Source of the DNA: Pegea sp. RAD2-039
Taxonomy: Eukaryota > Chordata > Thaliacea > Salpida > Salpidae
Assembly (NCBI GenBank): GCA_034620365.1
Contig: JAQGEQ010000329.1
Span: 287,745-351,744, forward strand
Length of the DNA stretch: 64,000 nt
Direction of reading: 5' to 3'
The notes under the pieces are model-generated. The model was given only the letters and a program-made list of their open reading frames with translations. It did no database searches and was not told where the DNA came from. Shown here piece by piece: positions 2,772-64,000 of this stretch. The position numbers and the translations under genes are program-made. Positions within the stretch are counted from its first letter, which is position 1, and every line of letters starts with the position of its first letter.

Positions 2772-3674
2772 TTAGTTAGGTGGTCTAGCAGCAGCAGTGA
2801 TTTCAATAACTTCACCATTGATCATCTTATTTTCATATACTGCTAACACACAATCAGCAAACTCTATAGGCTTTCCTAATCTATTTGGAAAAACATTAAA
2901 AAGCTCAACATATTGAGAAATTTTTTTTGAAACATTAATTTCAGGAGTATAAGTTAGCTGTGATTCAAAAAAGGTTGGAGAGATTGTCACAGATCTGATG
3001 TTACAATGAGCAAGGTCTCTAGCAACTGGAAGAGTCATCGAATTGATAGCACCATAAGATGCAGAGAGTGAAGAGTGAGCAAAGTTTCCATGTTTACCAT
3101 AAATTCCTGAAGTGTTTATCAAAACTCCTTGTTCATCCAGCGGTTTTATATCCTCTACTTTGATATGCTCAATCATTTTTTGTGCACAACACCGAAGAAA
3201 ATTAAATGAAGTAACAACATTATTATTCAATATATACTCTATATGCTGCATATTAATCATATTGTCTGAAGACTGTCTATAAAATATATGATTTTGTCCA
3301 GTTCCAACACAATTAACTGCTAAACCAAATTTACTTGAATCATCGATATGAGATAAAGCAGCTTTTAACTGATCTTCACAAAGCATATCTCCTTGTTCAA
3401 AAATAAATTGTTTTTTTTCTTCAGATTTCAGTATTATATCATCAACAGAAAAAGGTTTAAAAGCACGGTTTATATATGGATAAGTAAAATCATTTGGTGG
3501 TTCTTTTTGATTTTCTTTTATCAATTTGTCTTTTTTCTTCTTTTCATGAAATGTTATACTATCAAATCCAACCACCTTTGCTCCTAACTTAAGTAATTTA
3601 GCAGCAGTAGTACTACCCAATTCACCACTAGACCCAGCTACAAATGCTACCAAATTATGATAAGGTCCTTTCAT
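2772..3674 (-). CDS. HSD17B10 (HSD10/MRPP2)-like SDR, probable pseudoenzyme
   Basis: A 300-aa intronless protein of the short-chain dehydrogenase/reductase superfamily, closest in my judgement to 3-hydroxyacyl-CoA dehydrogenase type 2 (HSD17B10), seen from SMTLPVARDLAHCNIRSVTI (about 212-231), RLGKPIEFAD, NGEVIEI and the GVLINTS strand. It is longer than the usual ~261 aa because of a charged Lys-rich insertion at about 41-90. Key sites are changed: the Rossmann glycine motif reads AGSSGELG with Glu at the second Gly, the catalytic Ser position is Gly190, and YSASKGG has become LSASYGA, so the catalytic Tyr is Leu203 and the Lys is Tyr207. In animals HSD10 also serves as the MRPP2 subunit of mitochondrial RNase P, a role not needing catalysis; retention for that role is inference. 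The frame is intact over 300 codons, so this is not an obvious pseudogene. Confidence 0.85.
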   Translation of the reverse strand: MKGPYHNLVAFVAGSSGELGSTTAAKLLKLGAKVVGFDSITFHEKKKKDKLIKENQKEPPNDFTYPYINRAFKPFSVDDIILKSEEKKQFIFEQGDMLCEDQLKAALSHIDDSSKFGLAVNCVGTGQNHIFYRQSSDNMINMQHIEYILNNNVVTSFNFLRCCAQKMIEHIKVEDIKPLDEQGVLINTSGIYGKHGNFAHSSLSASYGAINSMTLPVARDLAHCNIRSVTISPTFFESQLTYTPEINVSKKISQYVELFNVFPNRLGKPIEFADCVLAVYENKMINGEVIEITAAARPPN

Positions 3675-5819
3675 TTTGTAGTTTACTTATACTATAGAAG
3701 ATGAAAATAAACATGAGAATAACAATAGATGAGTTTTTTGTTTATATAAGTTGAATATAATATTAAGAGCATTCGCAAAGTTCTAAAACTATAAACTTAA
3801 TTAGAATTATAAAACATAAATCATTTTATTAATAATCATTATCATAAAATACTTTTTATTACTTCAATTTTAACAAATATATAAAAAACTACAAAATACA
3901 TTATGCAAAAATTCAAAATATGTAACATACAAACTAACAAATAGTTATATTTAAGGTTTTTTAATAACTGTTTATATCATAAATACTTTAATATACAAAG
4001 GTCATAGGGAATACTAAAATGAAAAAGGTAACAATATCTAAATATTTACCTAGAAAATAAAATACATAAACTATCAAGCAAAGATCATACAATACACTAA
4101 ACTATACAAATATCAAAAATATGGTACAAAAATATAACTAGATTATCATTCTACTAGCATTTTACTGATTAATCTACAATCTAATTATCTGTTTAAGTTT
4201 ATATTATACTACAATTATTTTATATTATACTAAAACTAATTTAATATTCAAAATGTAAATAATAATTATTACACAAATATATGAAATGAGTATATTTATA
4301 CATACTTGATTTAATGTTAAAATTGAAAATGATATATATATGTAAGATAAAAAGTTGATTAAAAAACACTAAATAATCTTGTGCAATATATTGATATAAA
4401 TAATACCACATGGCTTTACCTTAAATGCACAAAACCTTCAACAGATTAAGTAACTACAATAACTTAATTAAAAATTTATAACATACAAAACATATAAAGC
4501 GTTAACATTAAAAACTATTTCATAAAACAAAAATTAATATTAAAATTAAAGTTGGTCTTTTAGTAAATAGTTGAATTTATCAAAGAACAAAAAATTAAAT
4601 AAGGCATTCTTATAACTTAAAAAAAGTGAACGAAATTATGTATAATAATGATTAAAACACTTTTGTAGGTCTTAAAACATTAGCATTCATTAAAAGAAGA
4701 TAAAAGCTCTTTTTAAAGATTTTAGATTACTAAATTTACAAAGCATGTGATTCAATCTTCAACATTCAGATATTTAAACTTTAATTCAAGACTAATGTGA
4801 CTTAAGATAAGAAATACGTTAGCTAAATTAAAAAAAGGGCATTAATTTAGGCTTAGTACCTTAACTGAAAAAGTTTAACGCTTTTTAATAAACTTATGAC
4901 CTGCAAAATCATTTTAAATGGCCTAACTTCTATCAACTTTGCTTTCAACTTAGTTTTATACGAGCACCGGGCTACAAACTTGCAATTAATATTACTAATT
5001 TAATAATTGTATTATTAATGATAAACAGAAAATAGAAATATATAAAATGAAAGGTTTCAAGTATCACAGGTTAACAACAGTAGTGAAAACTGCTCAGGTA
5101 AAGTTATGCGAGGTATGATAAAGTTAGGAGTAATAAGATACAAAACGATTAGAAAAATCACGGCACCATACACTCGTTGTCAATAAATAACTCAAGTCAT
5201 ACTTTTTTAGCATTTTTACAAAAATGACAAAGTTTAATGTAGTTCGGAAAAAGATTATAAACAGTTTTTACTATTTGTTTTTTTATTACTTTAATGAAAA
5301 GGTATAAGTCAAATGGATTCAATAAAAGTGATCAATTGAGTAAATTTTGAAAAGCAGTTAATTATGACTTGTTGCTGTCTATCCTTAAGAAATTACTCAA
5401 TCTGAAAATGACAGTTGGGTTAATACTAAACTGTCTAAGGTCTTTCACTAAAATAGATTGTAAAAAGGAGTCGAAAGCTTTACAAATGTCTGAATTGATG
5501 ATATTAGTAATTATGTAATTTGCTGAAGAACATTTCCATTCATGGAGTTAAGACTGATCACTGGAGAATCTTTGAGGAAAGAAAATTAAAGTTCAAAAGG
5601 TAAGTTGCTGTGAAGAAAATGATGTAATGCTGCCTAGAAAAATAATCTGAAAATAACAGTTTAATACAAGTTAATACTTAAATGTCTAAAGTTTTATACT
5701 GAAAATGAGGTGATATCACTGATGAAGACCTTTTGAAAGCTAAAGTTGAAAATTTCAGCTTCACTATATTTTTTTATTCCACCAACAAGGTGTGGTATGA
5801 ATGAACTATTTTAGATTTT
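3675..5819. other. Intergenic AT-rich DNA, no gene seen
   Basis: Homopolymer-rich AT sequence with stops in all frames. I see no coding exon with paired splice sites and no structured RNA. Confidence 0.6.
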
Positions 5820-34890: not shown

Positions 34891-36037
34891 AGTTGAATAC
34901 CAAATGAAAGAAAAACGCGAAATACCACAATATAAATAAGAGAAATAAAGTTCAGGCGTTAAAAAACTCTTTCTATTTTTTACTGGACATACCCAGCAGC
35001 GAATTCTCAAATATAATTTGTACTTCCTTTAGAAATTCAAATCTCTCTTCATTTTACATAAGGCTTGATAAAACACAGCAGCTCTTATTTAAAAATATAC
35101 ATTTTAATTAAGAGGCTCTAATGTTTTTGATTTCAAATAAGAAAAATTATTCTTTTAAAGAGTGATTTACTATGTTAAGAAAGTAGAAAATATTTTTTTA
35201 ATTTGATCTTTTACCTTTGTACACTTTTATTTGTAATTTTTATAAAACAAATTCTTTAATCTGGTAGTTTACCACAAATTTTTAAATTAATTTTTGTGCT
35301 GTAGTAGTAAAACTATTTCATAAACGTGTTTTCTTTGTCCTCGGCTGCTTAATTTGTTTTACTTTTTTAAATCTTTTAAAGTTTGTTGTGATAATGTGTA
35401 CTATATAATTTTGACTGTGAAATTGTTAATATTTTTTAGTAAATTTTATCTTATAAGTTTTAAATATCAATCATAAAGTTTTTTATTAGTTGTTGTAAAC
35501 ATGTGTTATCATGATTTCAAATAACATTTTAAATGTTTTATGTAAACTATAAGTTTGTAATGCAACTTTTATATCATTTATTTATATACTGTTTATAAAA
35601 CAACAATAGACCAATTATTAAATATATATTTTTATATTGAATTTATGGTATAATTATTTTGTGTTTCAAATCAAATAAATAATTTTTGAAAAGTTTTTGG
35701 AAGTGAATTTTAATTGTTTTAAATGATTTTATTTTTTATTTTAGCTTAAATCTTAACTGAAATCATTTTTTATTATGATTCAATTATAATTTTTATTGCA
35801 TAAAACCTTGGTACAATCTTTTGAACATTTTTGTATAAAGTACTTTCAATAATTAGTCAAAAAATGAATTTATAAGTTTTTATCATTTTGGTTATAATCC
35901 TAATTTATACTTTATACTATTGATATATGGTTTCATTTTTTTAAAAGTTAATTCTAACATAATATATAAAAAGTTGTTGAACTAGTTGACATTTTTTTAT
36001 ATAGCTTTCATATAACTTTAAAGTCATAATAGCAAAA
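34891..36037. other. 5' flank of OSGEP, AT-rich, no gene seen
   Basis: Long AT-rich stretch with many T-runs; no supported exon, RNA or repeat. Confidence 0.5.
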
Positions 36038-37063
36038 ATGTCAGTGACTGTGTTAGGCATGGAAGGAAGTGCCAATAAAATTGGAATTGGAATAATTAGA
36101 GATGGTATAGTCTTATCAAACCCACGTCAAACTTATATAAGTCCAATTGGTGAAGGTTTTAAACCTAAAGAGACTGCTATACATCATAAAAAATGGATTC
36201 TTAAGCTACTGCACCAGGCACTAAATGATGCTGGAATCCAACCTGAAGATCTAACTTGTATCGCGTATACTAAAGGTCCTGGCATGGCAGCTCCGTTACT
36301 TACTGTTGCAATTGTAGCTAGAACAGTTGCTCAGTTGTGGGAAAAACCACTTTTGGGTGTCAATCATTGTATTGGTCATATTGAAATGGGTCGCTTGATA
36401 ACAGGAGCAAAGAATCCAACTTTGTTGTATGTTTCAGGTGGAAATACTCAAGTTGTTGCATACTCTCAAAAAAGATATCGTATATTTGGCGAGACTATTG
36501 ATATAGCAGTTGGGAATTGTCTGGATAGATTTGCACGAGTAGTTAATATTTCAAATGACCCATGCCCTGGTTATAACATTGAAAAACTTGCTAAGGAAGG
36601 CAAAAAATATATTGAGCTTCCATATAAGGTAAAAGGAATGGATGTCTCCTTTAGTGGAATAGAAGCATTTTTAGAAAGACATTCAAGAAATCTTCTTAAA
36701 AGTGGCGAATATACTGTTGAAGATCTTTGTTATTCTTTACAAGAGACTGTTTTCGCTATGCTAGTTGAAATAACTGAAAGGGCAATGGCACATTGTGGTT
36801 CAGAAGAAGTTTTGTTAGTTGGTGGTGTAGCATGTAATCGTCGCTTACAAGAAATGATGGGAAAAATGGCTGAAGAAAGAGGTGCCAAACTATATGCTAC
36901 TGATCAACGATTTTGTATTGACAATGGAGCCATGATTGCTCAAGCTGGTGTAGAAATGTGGAAATCTGGTTATTGTGACATAGATAGAGATGAATTGATC
37001 AAAGATTCCTGGATTACACAACGTTTTAGGACTGATGCTGTAGAAGCTAAATGGAGAGATTGA
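36038..37063 (+). CDS. OSGEP: OSGEP/Kae1, KEOPS tRNA threonylcarbamoyltransferase
   Basis: Catalytic subunit of the KEOPS/EKC complex, which transfers threonylcarbamoyl from threonylcarbamoyl-AMP to A37 of ANN-decoding tRNAs (t6A). The 341-aa protein is intronless here and matches the usual length (335 in human). ASKHA-fold motifs are visible: [12 protein letters not shown] at the N-terminus, [11 protein letters not shown], the metal ligands in [11 protein letters not shown] (two His), [43 protein letters not shown] and the third metal ligand Asp in [12 protein letters not shown]. Start is the ATG before [10 protein letters not shown]. It stands alone, with more than 1 kb of AT-rich DNA on both sides. 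The lack of introns contrasts with most neighbours but many small genes here (POLR3K, SELENOT) are also intronless. Confidence 0.97.
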
Positions 37064-50875: not shown

Positions 50876-52606
50876 CTAAGAATTAGCAAAGTTTTCTGAT
50901 GTATCTTTGATATGATCTCTCACATGTTGATCAAGTACTGCAAATACATCTTGGCAACCAGATTCAACAGCATCCAACAAACTTCCCATTTCATCTTTAT
51001 GTACCCTAAACAAAATATGTTCAAGCACACTTCTAACACGATAGCACAAACATCAAGTGTTTTTCAGCTTTTCAAAAACTACTTTACATTTGTTTGTTAA
51101 AACAAAAATACAGAAAGTTTAGAAAACTGAGCAAAAAACTAACAGCAAATGTTGAAATAATTTTGCAAATTACTTTCCGTTTAGGTCTGTGTATACAATT
51201 CTTTTTAATTTTGGTAGAATAGCAGCACTGAGCAAAGCAGTTCCAACAGATTCTTCGATATTATTAACATCTATTATTGAAGTATTTTTTGCAATACTGG
51301 CAGAGCATGCAATTACATAATCCTATAAAGAAATTGAAAAAGTTAACAAGTAATCAACAACTATAAATATTATCAAATGATCAATTGTAAACAATACCTT
51401 CATAGGAATACCGGCATCAATAAGAGCTAAGGTTGCAACATTTACACTAGCCGCATAATCGCTACCGTCTGATTGTAATACTTGCAAATAAATATCAATT
51501 TGTGATCTGTAAAAATCACAAATTATTTAACGTATGGCTGCAAATGATATCAGCTGTTATAGTAGAAACAGGTTAATATAACTACAAAGAAAAAATGAAA
51601 GGATACAAGAACCACAGTTCAATCAACATCAGTAGATGAAAAATAAAATAACTTCAGAAGCAAATTTAGGTAAAATATAAAGTAGAAAAATGGCGTCATT
51701 ATCATTTACTAGCAAATTACTCAAGTTCTACTTCTTCAGCATAATTTCAAGAGCTAACATAAATTGCTGTAGTTATCAAGTCAAGAAGAATGACCCTCTT
51801 ATATCTCCAGTACAAACTGTTCTAATTGATAAGTAATCTAAAAATGTTATTACCTAGGATAAATTGAAGTATGGATAGCTCCTTCAAAAGTTTGTTTGAT
51901 ATGAAGGGACATCTCACGAGATCCTCGATCTCCCCTTGGTCTCATCTTTCTCTCAACTCTGCTAAAAGCTGCTTGACTATATTCGCAATTAATTAAACAA
52001 CTATCATTTGGAGTCTAGAAAATAAATATTTCAAATTAATTGCTTGAAAAATTGTTAAATATACAAAACACATCTAACCACGACTTACTTTGCTTTTTAG
52101 GTTTAAAGACGGCTCATGAGGTCCATATATAGCTGCCAAAATCTGTGGAATACAATATTGGTTTAGAAAAACAATTGCACCTTTAAATTAAAGATTAGAA
52201 AATAAAATTTAAACAATTCATTAGAAATATTTATCAGACAATCATTTTTTCAATTATATTTATTTCTATAAATCTGAACTGTGTTTTTGCTGTTTACAAT
52301 TTTCTATTTAAATCATTTTTAATTAAAGAAATTTTTTACTCTGATTTTTCTGCAATTATTTTCTGTAGTGTATGCTTTAAGAGCTGGATGATTTGGTATC
52401 TGTAGCCATCCAGTATATAAATAAAATAAAAGATGTTTCTTAAAACTGGTTATAAAGTAAAAATTTACCTTGGTGTTGCCTTGTTCGATGTAAGCAGAAC
52501 CATCGGCCTGTTGGAATACTCCTAAATTACATCGAATTCTGCGTAGTTCATTAAACTTTCTACCATCAACTCTAAAACCTTCATCATTTAATAATTCTAA
52601 AGACAT
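50876..52606 (-). CDS. EXOSC4: Exosome complex subunit EXOSC4 (Rrp41)
   Basis: RNase PH-fold subunit of the nine-protein ring of the RNA exosome, where it pairs with EXOSC9 and lines the RNA channel (catalytically inert in animals). Six exons (52606-52469, 52142-52089, 52014-51854, 51506-51398, 51322-51174, 51005-50876) join in phase to 741 nt (246 aa; human 245). Signatures: MSLELLNDEGFRVDGRKFNE, GVFQQADGSAYIEQGNTK, IYGPHEP, RPRGDRGSREMSLHIKQTFE, YPRSQIDIYLQVLQSDG, NVATLALIDAGIPMKDYVIA. I chose the ATG at 52606 because it aligns with the family N-terminus; an upstream in-frame ATG at 52639 would add 11 residues. SELENOT lies upstream on the same strand, and its candidate SECIS is about 90 bp before this start. 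Confidence 0.96.
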
Positions 52607-52697
52607 GATTATATCTGTTGAAGATATACAAGTTCTCAAAAGTTAAATTTAAACAAACTTACAATTTTAGTGTTTTAAAACTACCAAAAAACACCAT

Positions 52698-52741
52698 CAT
52701 CAAATATATTTTAGCTAAGCTTTTCAAAATATATCATCATT
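52698..52741 (-). promoter_or_regulatory. Candidate SECIS element of selenoprotein T
   Basis: In the 3' region of SELENOT, about 195 nt after its stop. Minus-strand core: ATGAT at 52740-52736, a G-U step plus helix ATATATTTT (52734-52726) paired with AAAATATAT (52712-52704), then TTGAT with TGAT at 52702-52699. This allows the U-U, G-A, A-G, U-U non-Watson-Crick quartet. The apical part is GAAAAGC TTA GCT: unpaired A residues followed by a 3-bp mini-stem, as in form 2 SECIS. The helix is short (10 bp) and AU-rich, and helix I below the quartet is weak, so this needs a folding check. Confidence 0.6.
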
Positions 52742-52935
52742 AGCAATAATAAGTTTGTAATCACAGCTTAAGACTTATAAACAGTAGTGAAGTAAAAAGA
52801 ATGATACAAGTTTAGAGAAATGTTTTATACAAAGTCATCAATATATTCCATAGTCATACTAACATTAAATGATAAAATAGATAAATATTATTGTTTACTA
52901 ATTAGAATTGATTCTCAAAGTGTTCTGATGATGAC

Positions 52936-53532
52936 TTAGAAGTTATTTGTCCCCGAAACCTTCCCATAATTGATATTAGATTCTATAATTTGTAAAAGTT
53001 CTTCAACTCTTGGCACACGTCCTGATTGTAACTTGGACCAAATCTTGTTATCATTTAACATTATTTCAAAAGCTCCAGTAGAAGTAAGTTGATTTTCAAT
53101 AGCATTACCAAGGAAAAATAACATGAAACAAGCATACATCTTATTCTCTTTTGCCCATAAGAAAGCACTTGGAGTTGGCTGACCAATCATATTGAAGGGA
53201 TCAACTCCACTTACAAGGCATAAAATAACAACAAATTTTGTTATACTAATCACAGAAGCTATAGCAGAATTGATAGAAGGAGGGGGGTAGTTACCACCTT
53301 CAACTTTGACCTCTGAAAAATGTTGCTGTATAACAGCAGCATATTGTTCAAAGGCTTTCTGATATCCTCATGAATGACACATTAATATCTTGATTACTGG
53401 AACTCCTAAATCAGTTTTTAATTTTCGAACACCATCATCATTAGAAGCATTAACCTTCCTTGTCATATCATTCCATGTAAACAGGAGTATTAGTGCCACC
53501 ACTATACCAAGCAATGTTGGTGTGTTAGACAT
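52936..53532 (-). CDS. SELENOT: Selenoprotein T with in-frame TGA as selenocysteine
   Basis: Thioredoxin-like ER-membrane selenoprotein (Rdx family) with a CxxU redox motif. One intronless frame of 597 nt (199 codons including stop) opens with MSNTPTLLGIVV, a hydrophobic signal/anchor (about residues 7-20). It reaches VPVIKILMCHSUGYQ, where U is TGA at 53370-53368 (codon 55) and Cys is residue 52. It continues uninterrupted for 143 codons with family words SGVDPFNMIGQPTPSAF, WAKENKMYACFMLFFLGN, IENQLTSTGAFEI, LNDNKIWSKLQSG and VEELLQIIESN. A hydrophobic segment (TKFVVILCLVSG) lies about residues 94-107. Conventional translation would start at the Met at 53253 and lose the active site. The C-terminal part aligns closely with human SELENOT. 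A candidate SECIS lies downstream. Confidence 0.95.
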
Positions 53533-54985
53533 GTTTTTTTTTTAATTCTAAAAATTTAAATATGAGAAAAGTTAAATTAATGTTTTCATTAAATACATAA
53601 ATTGCATTCTATAGTAAAACTTTGATGGAAAAGGTAATTAAATATCAAGCAATAAAAAAAGATATAATTAATGAAAGAGTTTTTAATTATTCTAGTGCTT
53701 GAACAAAAATGGAAATTATTGTTAAAAATACATAAATAATAAAGCTGAGAGTCTTAAGTGTTGAGATATTTTTTAAAATGATGGATAAAAATAAACACAA
53801 TACTAAATATAAAGAGCAATAATAAAATAATTTAAGATATCAGGCTAATTTTAAAAGCATTAAAAATACTGTTATTTTATATATCATTATAAGTTTGTCA
53901 TTAAGCAAATAAAAATCAATAAAGAAATTAGTTCAAATAAAAACTTTTATATCCTGCTAGATTTCTACTAGTAGCATAAGTTCCCAGAAAATAGAGCTAT
54001 AAAAGTAAATAAGTACAAAAGCCATTTTAGCAGCAGAATCATAAAGTGATATAAATCCGAAAAATAATAAGCAAGATTTAACAGAATTTTTAGGTAAAAC
54101 GATTGAAAAATATTAGTATATCAAACTAATTTAAATAATTTTGTACCTAATCATCGATGTTTACAATTAGTATTTTCTTTTATTTTACTAACCTACTATA
54201 CAACATATAAATTTATCTTCTTTTTAATTTAAACTTTATTAATAACTCTCTTAATACTTACTATTAGGATGTATTCTAGATATTTCATTCAAATATATTA
54301 TACTTTACATTGTATATTTTTGAGCAACAAATTATATCTTTATACTGCTAAGAAAGCTTAATAAGCAAAATTATCTTGACAGCAGTTTTAAAACTTTTAT
54401 GTTTTTAAAGAGACAAATGATTCTAAATTTAGACCAGCTAATTTAGATTCTGAAGTATTTAGAACAAAAATTATTTCAAAAAACATTAGAACCTATGTAG
54501 TGTAATACTAAACAATCAAACAGCTTTATAAAGTGTTTGAAGTCAAGCAGGGGGAATTTCAATTTTAATGTTTCTGATGCAATTATAGAAAGGAAACAAA
54601 AATTAATTATTTCTTAAAATCATCTATTCATAAGACTCTTAAAACCAAGACTGTAGAAAAACTGGGCGTGTATAGCCAAATGTAGTCACAACTTTACCTA
54701 AAAAAATCTCAAGATCTCAGTAACAGGGAGAGCTAATTTAAGGCAACACAATTTTGATAAGTTTAAGCTGAGAGAGTAGCAAAATAACCATTTCAAACTG
54801 ATTAATAATTTTTGACAAGAAAGAAAACATCTTTATGATGACTTTACCATTATTGCCAAAAATATCTTATATCAAATCTATGTTTTATCTTATAACAATA
54901 TGAGCTGACTGCTTATAAAAGCAAACATAATCATGATCTTATAGTTAAGCACTAAATATTGGTGTGATGTTTCCACTATAATTTT
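53533..54985. other. Intergenic AT-rich DNA, no gene seen
   Basis: 5' flank of SELENOT and upstream AT-rich DNA up to the LINE 3' end. No supported features. Confidence 0.5.
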
Positions 54986-57900
54986 AATTTATTTATTACA
55001 AAATATGCGAAGGAGGGTACCTGAAGAGAGCACCTCTCACTAACACACATTGTTACAAATAACATATATTTAGTGAAAAATATAGAAAGTAAAAGATGTA
55101 ACACATGGTATTTCGATAGTCCTCAAAGCATATAACATTGAACAATTACAAGGAATGTTAATAATATCAAAAAGAAAACTCAAAATCCTAAAAACTAAAA
55201 AAAAAGAAAAAAAGGAAAATTTACAGTTTAGAAATGACAATGCTGGCAATGTTATAACGGTTCGACTTCTTTTTGAAAAACGCGAGTGATTCTGACATGA
55301 CAATTTCTGATGGCAGCTGGTTCCATGTATTAATTGTACGGTATGAGAAATAATTTGCTCTGACCAAGGTAATATAAGCTTATTAAGGTGTAATGTGTGT
55401 CTTCTGAGCTGATATAACTTGAGGGAAGGACTAATGGAAAAGAAATCATCAAACTGAAGGTCAATTAAATTGTGGATAATTTAAAGAATAAGAATTAAGT
55501 CGCATTTAATCCGTCGAATTTCCAAAGTATCTAGATTGAAGAAGCTGAGACGATGTTTATAACTATCATATTTAATATTAAGTTTCCTGCATACTAATCT
55601 GGTAAATGTGGCCTGAACAGATTCGATATTTTTGATATCACTAAATTGATATGGCATGTATGCACTGACATTGTATTCAAGAATTGGACGTACGTACAAT
55701 TTGAAAAGATTGATAAAAAAGCAGGGGTCCTTAGAATTAAAGGTCTTTATAATAAGGAAGACAAGGTTGATTGATTTTCCAAAGATTTTGGAAACATAAT
55801 TGTGCCATTTAAAGTCAGATGATAGAGTAATGCCAAGGTCTAGGACCGAAGATACTTAATAATAAATCTATTGATGGAGTATTGGTTCAAGCAATTTACA
55901 GCTGGTTTACGAGAAAAAGTTATAAGTTCAGACTTTGTGGGCTGGATTCTTAGATGTCAGTTCATGTACCAGTTTTCTACAGTGTGTAGTGCAGTTTGAA
56001 GTTTTGAAGGATTACAAGATAATAGCTTGATATCATCTGCATACACAGACACTCTGACATCATCTACTGCTACTAATCTTCTGATGAGGTCTTCGATGAA
56101 AATTAAATAGAAGGGGACCCAGAACAGAACCCTGAGAAACACCACTAATGATTTGACTAGAAGTAGATAAAGATCTTTCAACACGAGTTTGTTGGATTTT
56201 ACCTGATAAGTAATCTTCAATCCACTGTAAGATAAAACTGTTGATTTCTAAGTTTTTCAATACAGTAACGAGCTTAGTGTGTGGGACAGAATCAAACGCT
56301 TTAGCAAAATCGAGGTATATGATGTCACAGGGAGTATTACTTTCGTAATGGGCTGTAAGCTCATTAAGAAAAGTGAGATGTTGAGTCAGGGAAGATCTCC
56401 GTTTCACAAAGCCATGCTGGACATCAGATATTAGATGGTGCTCCATTAAATGACTGGTCATATGATTGTGAATGATATGCTCTTGAGTTCTGCAGATAAC
56501 TGAAGTCAGCGAAACTGGTCTGTAGTTAAGTGCGGTGTTTCTGGGACCTTTTTTATGAATTGGAGTAATAATAGCTTTTTTCCAAATTTGTGGAACTTTT
56601 TCTCGCCTCAGAGTCATGTTAAAGAAAATCGATAAAGGTAATGATAAAGAGAAAGTAGTTTTTCTTAAAAACAAAGCTGGGATCTGATCTGTTGGAAACT
56701 GATGATTTTAAAGAAGAAATAGACTTAGATACCATATCGAGCGTTATGTCAAGATTTACCATCTCAGAGACATTTGTAAGAATGTCGGAGCAGGAGAGAG
56801 AAGGAGTATTGCCATCATCGATTATAAAAACGCTATTAAATTGATTGTTTAGCAACTCAGCTTTATTTTCTCGTTCCATCACAAGCTGGTCGCTGTTATC
56901 AATTAGAGGAGGTATTTGAGATCTCGCCTTAAGCTTGCGATTTATGAAACTAAAAAACGTTTTCTTGCTAGGTGAAGGTAAAACTGCACTTTCTCTTCCT
57001 AAACATAAATTAGAAATAGATTTCTTGTAAACTATACAAAGATCTTTGTACAGAGATTTGATGAAAGGGTCTGTTTTAGTTTGTTTGTATAGGAGGTTTT
57101 TTAAATGTTGTAAATTCTTTAAATTTTTGGGCAAATGTGGCTTTTTGTTAACTTGATAAAAAGGTATTAATTTTTGGATTGACCCTTTAACGATGTTAGT
57201 AAATCTTGAGTAAACAGTATTGATGTCTTCGGAAGAGTTGAAAACAGAAATCCAGTCAACATCTGATAGGAACTTGTTAATGCCATTATAATTTTCCAGT
57301 AAAAATTCCTTTTAATTTAAGTTTTAACGTTCATAAAAAAAGTTTGATAAAGCTTGAATTCAATCATATTGTGATCGCATGTCAAAGCAAAAGGTTCTTT
57401 TTGATCAACGTAGATAATGATCTCGGGTTTTGATGTGATAAGAAGATCCAAAGTATTACCACTAACTTGGGTCGGAAAAATAACCATCTGAGATAGATTA
57501 TTGGTATTGAGGAAGCTTACAAAGGCATGACTTAGAAAGGGTGAATTAGTATTATCGCTATCCAAGTTAAAGGATTTTCCACTAAATGCTGAATTCGGGT
57601 AATTCCAATCAATTTTAATAAAATTAAAACCCCCAAAATATATAACTCAGGACACACAACACTCTTCAGAACTTTTAATAAGGCCTTAACAGAACCTCAT
57701 CATTAGTTTTAGAGGGTGGTAAGTAGGTACATATTAAACGAGACAATTTGGACTTTGAGTAATAAAAATCAAAAGCGATAATCTCAAACCCTAGACAATT
57801 AATGGGATCGATCTGAATTTTAGAGATCTTGGGTGCAAGCGATATTTTATAAATTACACAAACACCGCCGCCTCTATCATACAGTCTATCACAACGCAAA

Positions 57901-59190
57901 ACACAAAAAATATTACCGTCAACCAGAAAAGAATCAGGATAAAACGGTTTCAACCAAGTTTCAGTAATAAAATCAAATGTGAAATCTTGGGAATGCAAAA
58001 GAGCTTTCAATTAAAAAATTTTGTTAGTAATCGACCTTGCGTTGAAGAACATACCTAATGTGATAGAAGAATTGTCTTTTTGACGCTTGTGAGATTTGAT
58101 GATGGGCTTCTGTAAATTGATATCTTGGATATTAACAATTGTGTCCGGACAGAGTTTGAAAAAAGAAGATGTGGGTCCAGTGATTATTTGCCACTTCCGT
58201 TTTTTTTTAAATCTTGACAACTCTCAAGGCCCATGGTGGACCTCGAACTTTGTATTTGAAATCAGTTGGTTGTTCCTTCTGATTTCGGTTATACGCCTCT
58301 TTTAGAAGACGCTTATTTTCTAAGCGATCATCTTCACACATCATGCGCTACTTTAATGCGCTCGAATTTTTTGTCAATCCTTAGCTTATGCAGCTTGGCA
58401 AGATACCTGCGTTTGTCCCAACTTTCCTGAAAGGACACTTTCAACGGTCTTGGATGATCTGAGCTTTTTGCTCCAAGTCTAGTTATTGATACCTTTGGAA
58501 CGTCAACGAAATCAAGGCTTTGAGAGCACATTTGATTAAAAAACTTAGTGTCATCATCTTTATCAATCTCAGAGACATTAAAGATGATGCCATTGTTTTC
58601 TCTGTCCTCACGGTCTACAATGAGTTTTTGTGCGTGTCGGTGACCTTCTTGGCAAGAAACTGCACCATGTTAGCATTTTTGTCAGAACAGGGATCACCGA
58701 CAACCGAGACCCATGTGACTTGTTTCTTTGTAGAGGCATTCAGTTGGTCCATTGATTTGGACAAACTAGATACTTTCTCATCAATTTTGTCAACATGTTT
58801 GGCAATTTCCGATTTAAGGTTTACTAATTCAGCAGATACAGATTTACTGATGTCTGATAATAGGTTTTGATCAGAATTGGTTGAGGGAGCTGTTGTGTCC
58901 ATGGTTCTACATTTAATGCAAAACCATTTAAATCCCATTTGCTTCATCTCGTTTTTATCAAACATATCATAAATTTTCTTGCTCACTCACTACAGGTGAG
59001 ATGAAAGCAGGAGAGACATTTAAAACATTCAATTACTGGATCTTCACCAGATCAAATTTTATTACAGGATTGGCAATTGCAATCTTGCTTTGATGAAGTC
59101 GGTTTTTCAGGATTTTTCTTTACAGTAGACCGTAAGGTCTTGCCACTTTTATGTGAATCCACCATAGTTTGCAAAAAAGATTTTTACTGT
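54986..59190 (-). mobile_element. Non-LTR retrotransposon (CR1/Jockey-like), nearly full length, broken
   Basis: Order on the minus strand: a PHD-type Cys/His finger (59163-58985; CNCQSC, CFKCLSCFHLTCSE, FCIKC), ORF1 with coiled-coil and basic KYKVRGPPWALR-type end (to about 58240), ORF2 apurinic-type endonuclease (LGMFFNARSITNKI, FITETWLKPF, DRGGGVCVIYK, CTYLPP, CDHNMIEFKL; 58070-57317), linker, reverse transcriptase (ITPIHKKGPRNTALNYRPVS, LDFAKAFDSVPH, GVSQGSVLGPLLF, YADDIKLL; 56600-55990) and a C-terminal region with ESVQATFTRLVCRKL. The 3' end has ATAAATAAAT and the GTGCTCTCTTCAGGTACCCT tail. Stops and frameshifts occur in ORF1, endonuclease and RT, so it is inactive. The superfamily is judged from motif order only. 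Confidence 0.88.
58240..58986 (-). pseudogene. LINE ORF1, frameshifted
   Basis: Reads SKKIYDMFDKNEMKQMGFKW through a Lys/Ser-rich coiled segment (KIDEKVSSLSKSMDQLN) and ends with RGPPWALRVVK-type residues. Compared with the second copy at 63060-63842 it lacks 2 nt near 58337 (CACATCATG against CACATATCATG), which breaks the frame. The Cys pair FCIKC probably completes the upstream PHD finger. Confidence 0.8.
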
Positions 59191-62673: not shown

Positions 62674-64000
62674 TCCATTCATTTAGACAAACTAGACATT
62701 TTGTAAATTACACAAACACCGCCGCCTCTATCATACAGTCTATCACAACGCAAAACACAAAAAATATTACCGTCAACCAGAAAAGAATCAGGATAAAACG
62801 GTTTCAACCAAGTTTCAGTAATAAAATCAAATGTGAAATCTTGGGAATGCAAAAGAGCTTTCAATTAAAAAATTTTGTTAGTAATCGACCTTGCGTTGAA
62901 GAACATACCTAATGTGATAGAAGAATTGTCTTTTTGATGCTTGTGAGATTTGATGATGGGCTTCTGTAAATTGATATCTTGGATATTAACAATTGTGTCC
63001 GGACAGAGTTTGAAAAAAGAAGATGTGGGTCCAGTGATTATTTGCCACTTCCATTTTTTTTAAACCTTGACAACTCTCAAGGCCCATGGTGGACCTCGAA
63101 CTTTGTATTTGAAATCAGTTGGTTGTTCCTTCTGATTTTGGTTATACGCCTCTTTTAGAAGACGCTTATTTTCTAAGCGATCATCTTCACACATATCATG
63201 CGCTACTTTAATGCGCTCGAACTTTTTGTCAAGCCTTAGGTTATACAGCTTGGCAAGAAACTTGCGTTTGGTCCAATTTTCCTGAAAGGACACTTTCAAC
63301 GGTATTGGATGATCTGAGCTTTTTGCTCCAAGTCTAGTCATTAATACCTTTGGAACTTCAACGAAATCAAGGCTTTGAGAGCACAATTGATTAAAAAACT
63401 TAGTGTCACCATCTTTATCAGTCTCAGAGACATTAAAGTTGATGACATTGTTTTCTCTGTCCTCACGGTCTGCAATGAGTTTTTTGTGCGTGTCGGTGAC
63501 CTTCTTGGCAAGAAACTGCACTATGTTAGCATTTTTGTCGGGACTGGGATCACCGACCACCGAGGCCCATGTGACTTGTTTCTTTGTAGAGGCATTCAGT
63601 TCGTCCATTGATTTGGACAAACTAGATACTTTCTCATCAATTTTGTCGACATCTTTGGCAATTTCCGATTTAAGTTTGACTAATTCAGCAGATACAGATT
63701 TACTGATGTCTGATAATAGGTTTTGATCAGAATTGGTTGAGGGAGCTGTTGTGTCCATGGTTCTACATTTAATGCAAAACCATTTAAATCCCATTTGCTT
63801 CATCTCGTTTTTATCAAACATATCATAAATTTTCTTGCTCACTCACTACAGGTGAGATGAAAGCAGGAGAGACATTTAAAGCATTCAATTACCGGATCTT
63901 CACCAGATCAAATTTTATTACAGGATTGGCAATTGTAATCTTGCTTTGATGAAGTCGGTTTTTCAGGATTTTTCTTTACAATAGACCGTAAGCTTTTGCC
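62674..64000 (-). mobile_element. Second LINE copy, rearranged and 3'-truncated, runs off the window
   Basis: Near-identical to 57850-59150. On the minus strand: PHD segment (from beyond ~63990), ORF1, ORF2 start and endonuclease up to GGGVCVIYK at about 62700. There the sequence jumps into a ~25-bp piece of ORF1 (the SSLSK region, CTAGTTTGTCTAAATGAATG) and then the minisatellite. RT and 3' tail are absent. It probably sits in a TCERG1 intron. Confidence 0.85.
63060..63842 (-). CDS. LINE ORF1 protein, intact frame of 260 codons
   Basis: Open from a GTG at 63842 to the stop at 63060. It has FCIKC near the N-terminus (end of the PHD-like finger), a heptad-like stretch (KIDEKVSSLSKSMDELN, about residues 68-84), an acidic/Asp-rich middle and a basic end (FKYKVRGPPWALRVVK). 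ORF1 proteins of such elements bind RNA and form RNPs. The true N-terminus would be in the upstream PHD frame, which is separated by a frameshift and carries a TGA, so whether this frame is translated is doubtful. It is a transposon protein, not a host gene. Confidence 0.7.
   Translation of the reverse strand: MSKKIYDMFDKNEMKQMGFKWFCIKCRTMDTTAPSTNSDQNLLSDISKSVSAELVKLKSEIAKDVDKIDEKVSSLSKSMDELNASTKKQVTWASVVGDPSPDKNANIVQFLAKKVTDTHKKLIADREDRENNVINFNVSETDKDGDTKFFNQLCSQSLDFVEVPKVLMTRLGAKSSDHPIPLKVSFQENWTKRKFLAKLYNLRLDKKFERIKVAHDMCEDDRLENKRLLKEAYNQNQKEQPTDFKYKVRGPPWALRVVKV

Follow-up and report, generated by a model that had tools for sequence, protein, structure and literature searches.

The stretch analysed, hereafter the window, comprises 64,000 nucleotides of a Pegea sp. 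contig and contains, on its minus strand, a single-exon SELENOT coding frame followed closely by the gene for the exosome subunit EXOSC4 (RRP41). The SELENOT frame runs from an ATG at 53532 to 52936, with 198 codons and a terminal TAA (52938-52936). Its sole internal stop is a TGA at codon 55 (53370-53368), which occupies the selenocysteine (Sec) position of a CHSU motif in the residue context MCHSUGYQKAFEQY. The first-pass annotation had described a frame open except for this codon, with the TGA at the U of CxxU and GYQKAFEQY after it. Its coordinates proved exact, and the strand that it left unstated is minus.

An open frame of this length is uncommon but does not in itself identify a gene. 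Based on the frequency of stop triplets on the minus strand, the probability of meeting no more than one stop in 198 codons is about 3e-6 per start point. A formal test for an ATG, roughly 190 or more codons and one internal TGA was nevertheless passed by three frames in the 64-kb window. Of the other two, one overlaps a TsaD/OSGEP frame when that is extended beyond its final TGA, and one a frame for reverse transcriptase. Homology, rather than openness, therefore decides the identity of SELENOT. The truncated 105-residue product that had been predicted from 53253 would begin at codon 94, which is GTG, a start of the bacterial style only. Past the TGA, no ATG occurs before codon 115 (53190), from which a eukaryotic gene caller would be expected to report 84 residues. 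Reading the frame by eye brought out a selenoprotein that conventional gene calling would probably have reported without its active site.

The family assignment was examined with profile searches of the translated frame. Pfam Rdx (PF10262) matched with 63.1 bits against a cut-off of 22.6, and NCBIfam CXXU_selWTH (TIGR02174) with 84.2 bits against a cut-off of 34.2. Both matches span residues 47-184, and the domain opens with CxxU and the following GY. As the models have 74 positions spread over this interval, an insert of about 65 residues must lie inside the Rdx domain. Hydropathy in 19-residue windows was highest at residues 89-108, inside the insert, with another hydrophobic segment at residues 1-19. 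A long hydrophobic insert in the Rdx domain is a trait of SELENOT that is absent from SELENOW and SELENOH. We take CxxU at the start of the domain, together with the hydrophobic insert, to be the layout of SELENOT and not of SELENOW. Structural comparison was less informative: a PDB search with the protein returned one match only, the distant C17orf37, and AlphaFold2 run on the single sequence gave a mean pLDDT of 38. Scans with the single protein, which reach close relatives only, found no relative in viral contigs (1 stretch with a pattern match) or in prokaryote genomes (31 stretches), as expected of an animal gene.

A candidate SECIS element of form II is located at 52747-52690 on the minus strand, 189-246 nt after the stop codon and within the presumed SELENOT 3' UTR (52616-52935). 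It contains AUGA, an AAA motif, a mini-helix of AGC and GCU, and UGAU. The Rfam model RF00031 (SECIS_1) aligned there over its whole length (1-64) with 24.3 bits, where the gathering score is 35; the E-value of 0.029 over 4227 families corresponds by division to about 7e-6 for RF00031 alone in 701 bases. RNA folding gave a 10-bp helix composed almost entirely of A-U pairs, in addition to the mini-helix, with a stability that is ordinary and no better than that of shuffled sequences (z of -0.92 and -1.05). Neither the Rfam scan of the 64-kb window at the gathering threshold, which returned no match at all, nor the whole-genome SECIS search, which found four places, reported this element. A score of 24.3 bits is not significant at the scale of a genome; it is the position of the element that counts. 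Our own motif scan matched once on both strands of the window, at this element. When 52935-52606 was shuffled 5000 times, 14 of the shuffles gave a match, a rate that is only indicative because the scan was written after the element had been seen and because it missed the SECIS of TXNRD. The first-pass annotation had made its claim depend on a SECIS able to fold in the 3' UTR, and this form-II element, though below the gathering score, is what was found.

It had likewise depended on the genome encoding tRNA-Sec or eEFSec. Both are present in the 105.7 Mb (387 contigs) that we searched. A tRNA-Sec with anticodon TCA was found on contig C28 with 79.1 bits, while the remaining 38 of the 39 places listed fell below the cut-off; ARAGORN found no tRNA in the window itself. 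The eEFSec_4th profile identified eEFSec with 75.7 bits, and SEPSECS was represented by six SepSecS stretches on one contig. A selD-type gene was found as three stretches on one contig, each below the whole-protein cut-off. The first exon of this gene contains an in-frame TGA, in GLKGUGCKVP, and matched selenide, water dikinase 1 in the PDB (E 2.4e-11). This search covered tRNA-Sec, eEFSec, SEPSECS and selD.

Other selenoprotein genes of the same genome also carry in-frame TGA codons. TXNRD ends in GCUG followed by the stop, and a SECIS match of 28.3 bits has its AUGA beginning 98 nt after that stop; it is the only one of the four genomic SECIS places that could be tied to a gene. SELENOW (contig C44) has CGGU with an in-frame TGA in one exon, and neither Rfam nor our own motif scan found a SECIS within about 1.5 kb downstream of it. 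A second Rdx gene has CASU with an in-frame TGA, read across an intron by eye. Separately, another of the four places (contig C11, 750135-750197) is SECIS-like with 28.6 bits and is matched by our own scan as well, with no recognised selenoprotein frame upstream.

We considered whether the TGA could instead be a disabling mutation in an intronless pseudogene or retrocopy, a possibility that we regard as very slight. In favour of a retrocopy, human SelT is a multi-exon gene whereas the SELENOT frame here has no introns, and SelT pseudogenes are listed for mammals (PMC3316567). However, the lone stop coincides precisely with the U of CxxU, nothing else interrupts the 198 codons, the stop codon is followed by a SECIS match at the proper place, and no long A-tract was seen by eye 3' of the gene. 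Single-exon genes are, moreover, common in the operons of Ciona (PMC2760879). SELENOT was found only once in the whole-genome search, and because this is the sole SELENOT-like place there is no parent copy from which a retrocopy could derive. We therefore set a processed copy aside on the grounds of the single genomic copy and the intact frame. The other alternative, that the TGA is intronic and the mature protein lacks it, we judge to be every bit as remote and likewise set aside: the codon is indeed spanned by 17 loosely matching in-frame GT-AG pairs, but all 17 would also delete residues just after Sec (GY and more), GTAAG and GTGAG are absent from their donors, and the Rdx match, which starts at residue 47, crosses the CxxU motif.

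The frame, the family match, the SECIS match and the genes for decoding are all present in the DNA. The claim of a selenoprotein T with UGA recoding is thus supported by Rdx homology, the SECIS, tRNA-Sec, eEFSec, SEPSECS, the selD-type exon and the other selenoprotein genes. We conclude with high confidence, from the DNA, that the locus is a functional single-exon animal SELENOT whose UGA at codon 55 would be decoded as Sec by way of the form-II SECIS. In the proposed mechanism, the UGA would be read by tRNA-Sec(UCA) and eEFSec, directed by the element 189-246 nt past the stop codon. The product is predicted to be a thioredoxin-like oxidoreductase of the ER membrane, on account of its N-terminal hydrophobic segment, an Rdx domain that opens with CxxU, and the long insert of hydrophobic residues typical of SELENOT; Sec in the product, its localisation and its redox activity are predictions.

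Mammalian SELENOT is alike in having an Rdx domain with a long hydrophobic insert, CxxU followed by GY, a UGA for Sec and a SECIS in the 3' UTR. The remainder of the vertebrate protein was compared by eye only. The mammalian peptide carries CVSU, according to PMC10093731, whereas the motif here is CHSU, and the coding exon here is single. None of the titles listed in literature searches concerned a CHSU motif. Among tunicates, PMC2874816 includes SelT in its table for Ciona intestinalis and gives form-II SECIS elements for SelW1 and DsbA. PMC3473315 lists one SelT each for Amphimedon, Trichoplax, Nematostella, Lottia, Capitella and Branchiostoma. SELENOT of Pegea sp. is accordingly an ordinary, well-supported addition to a family already known in Ciona and other invertebrates, and it adds a compact example.

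The most interesting point of the locus is the tight packing of SELENOT against its neighbour. EXOSC4 extends from 52606 to 50879 on the same strand and has several exons, the first recognised by homology (best E 4.6e-16 against RRP41 chains in the PDB) and the later ones and the gene end placed by eye. Only 329 nt separate the SELENOT stop from the EXOSC4 ATG at 52606. Two possible 3' splice sites, to which a splicing function may be assigned, were noted: TTTAAATTTTTAG, with its last base at 53548, in which TAG follows a T run 15 nt before the SELENOT ATG and which might accept a trans-spliced leader, and TATATCTTCAACAG, with its last base at 52615, in which CAG stands 8 nt before the EXOSC4 ATG. 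The 329 nt that separate the two genes contain neither AATAAA nor ATTAAA. An AGTAAA at 52899 and a TATAAA at 52829 are present in the SELENOT 3' UTR, both preceding the SECIS. Repeats around SELENOT, inverted and direct, included nothing that bears on the gene.

We searched the genome for the spliced leader of C. intestinalis, with the sequence taken from PMC7986045. The 16-nt leader followed by GT gave 259 matches with at most one mismatch, compared to 1 for the reversed control. A tandem array of units of about 199 bp bearing the Ciona leader was located on a single contig (C4, 1135044-1142219; 13 loci, L067-L079). In 13 of the 20 leader loci that were read, all of them from this array, the leader is followed by GTAAGTGTC and, by eye, a small hairpin, as expected of a gene for spliced-leader RNA. 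At none of the 20 loci did the Ciona Sm motif AGCTTTGG occur up to 60 nt from the leader, a point against the operon reading considered below. The genome is taken, on the strength of the leader copies, as that of a tunicate with trans-splicing of the Ciona type. A COX1 search gave no match, and an origin in a sponge, placozoan or rotifer was dropped in view of the Ciona leader and of the Cdx-like and posterior-Hox-like homeodomains. At the other 7 loci, which are scattered copies, different sequence follows the leader (for example GTTATAGG), and these copies are perhaps retroposed.

About a fifth of Ciona genes lie in operons, and the 5'-most gene is single-exon in 790 (60%) of these (PMC2760879). 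A single-exon SELENOT fits the place of a first cistron for this reason. We lean towards an operon of two genes, SELENOT first and EXOSC4 second, the transcript of which would be resolved by spliced-leader trans-splicing. As in Ciona operons (PMC2760879, PMC7986045), the neighbours share a strand, the first of them has one exon, a possible acceptor stands shortly before the ATG of the second, and the genome carries the identical 16-nt leader. The locus differs in that it is known here from DNA alone and in that the gap lacks AATAAA and ATTAAA. On the other side we also count that Ciona operons are defined by less than 100 bp between mRNAs (PMC2760879), a distance to be distinguished from the 329 nt between stop and ATG measured here.

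The acceptor ending at 52615 may serve trans-splicing, or it may close a 48-nt cis intron that begins with GTAAGT at 52662. Such an intron is plausible. A serious possibility, if one short of probable, is accordingly that the two genes are independent, with the EXOSC4 promoter within the SELENOT 3' UTR and the 48-nt intron in the EXOSC4 5' UTR. The pairing of GTAAGT with the CAG ending at 52615 speaks for independence, and short introns do occur in this genome, those of the second Rdx gene being 62 and 68 nt by eye. Against it, we estimate that a GTAAGT would arise by chance in 329 bases about one time in ten, copies of the spliced leader are present in the genome, and the shared orientation of the two genes, the short distance between them and the single exon of the first all fit operons of the Ciona type.

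Under the operon reading, the end of the SECIS would lie about 75 nt before the trans-splice site. A fuller proposal combines an operon with EXOSC4, this spacing, a loss of SELENOT introns and a shortening of the 3' UTR to fit the arrangement, and CHSU as a lineage-specific tuning of the motif; taken jointly, we consider these points evenly balanced between true and false. If the operon is real, the locus would be a natural case for the upkeep of a SECIS-bearing 3' UTR together with 3'-end formation and trans-splicing, all within 329 nt. A literature search combining selenoprotein, operon and Ciona returned no title on a SECIS-bearing 3' UTR in such an operon.

Several other features were observed in the window and the genome. 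Two single-frame genes, for a TFIIS-type zinc ribbon protein (2293-2634) and a short-chain dehydrogenase (2772-3686, 304 codons), lie 137 nt apart on the minus strand, and this pair is perhaps another operon. The TsaD gene, of the OSGEP/Kae1 type, occupies 36005-37063 on the plus strand as one uninterrupted frame, 352 codons long. Pieces resembling a non-LTR retrotransposon are found on the minus strand at 55070-58986 and 63060-63842; among them are the reverse-transcriptase frame (56060-56707, Pfam RVT_1) and a second frame in two copies that appear nearly alike by eye (58615-58986 and 63060-63842). Elsewhere in the genome, two findings mark it as that of an animal: Wnt genes are present, and homeodomains were read as Cdx-like and posterior-Hox-like, with 15 of the 30 fetched loci readable.
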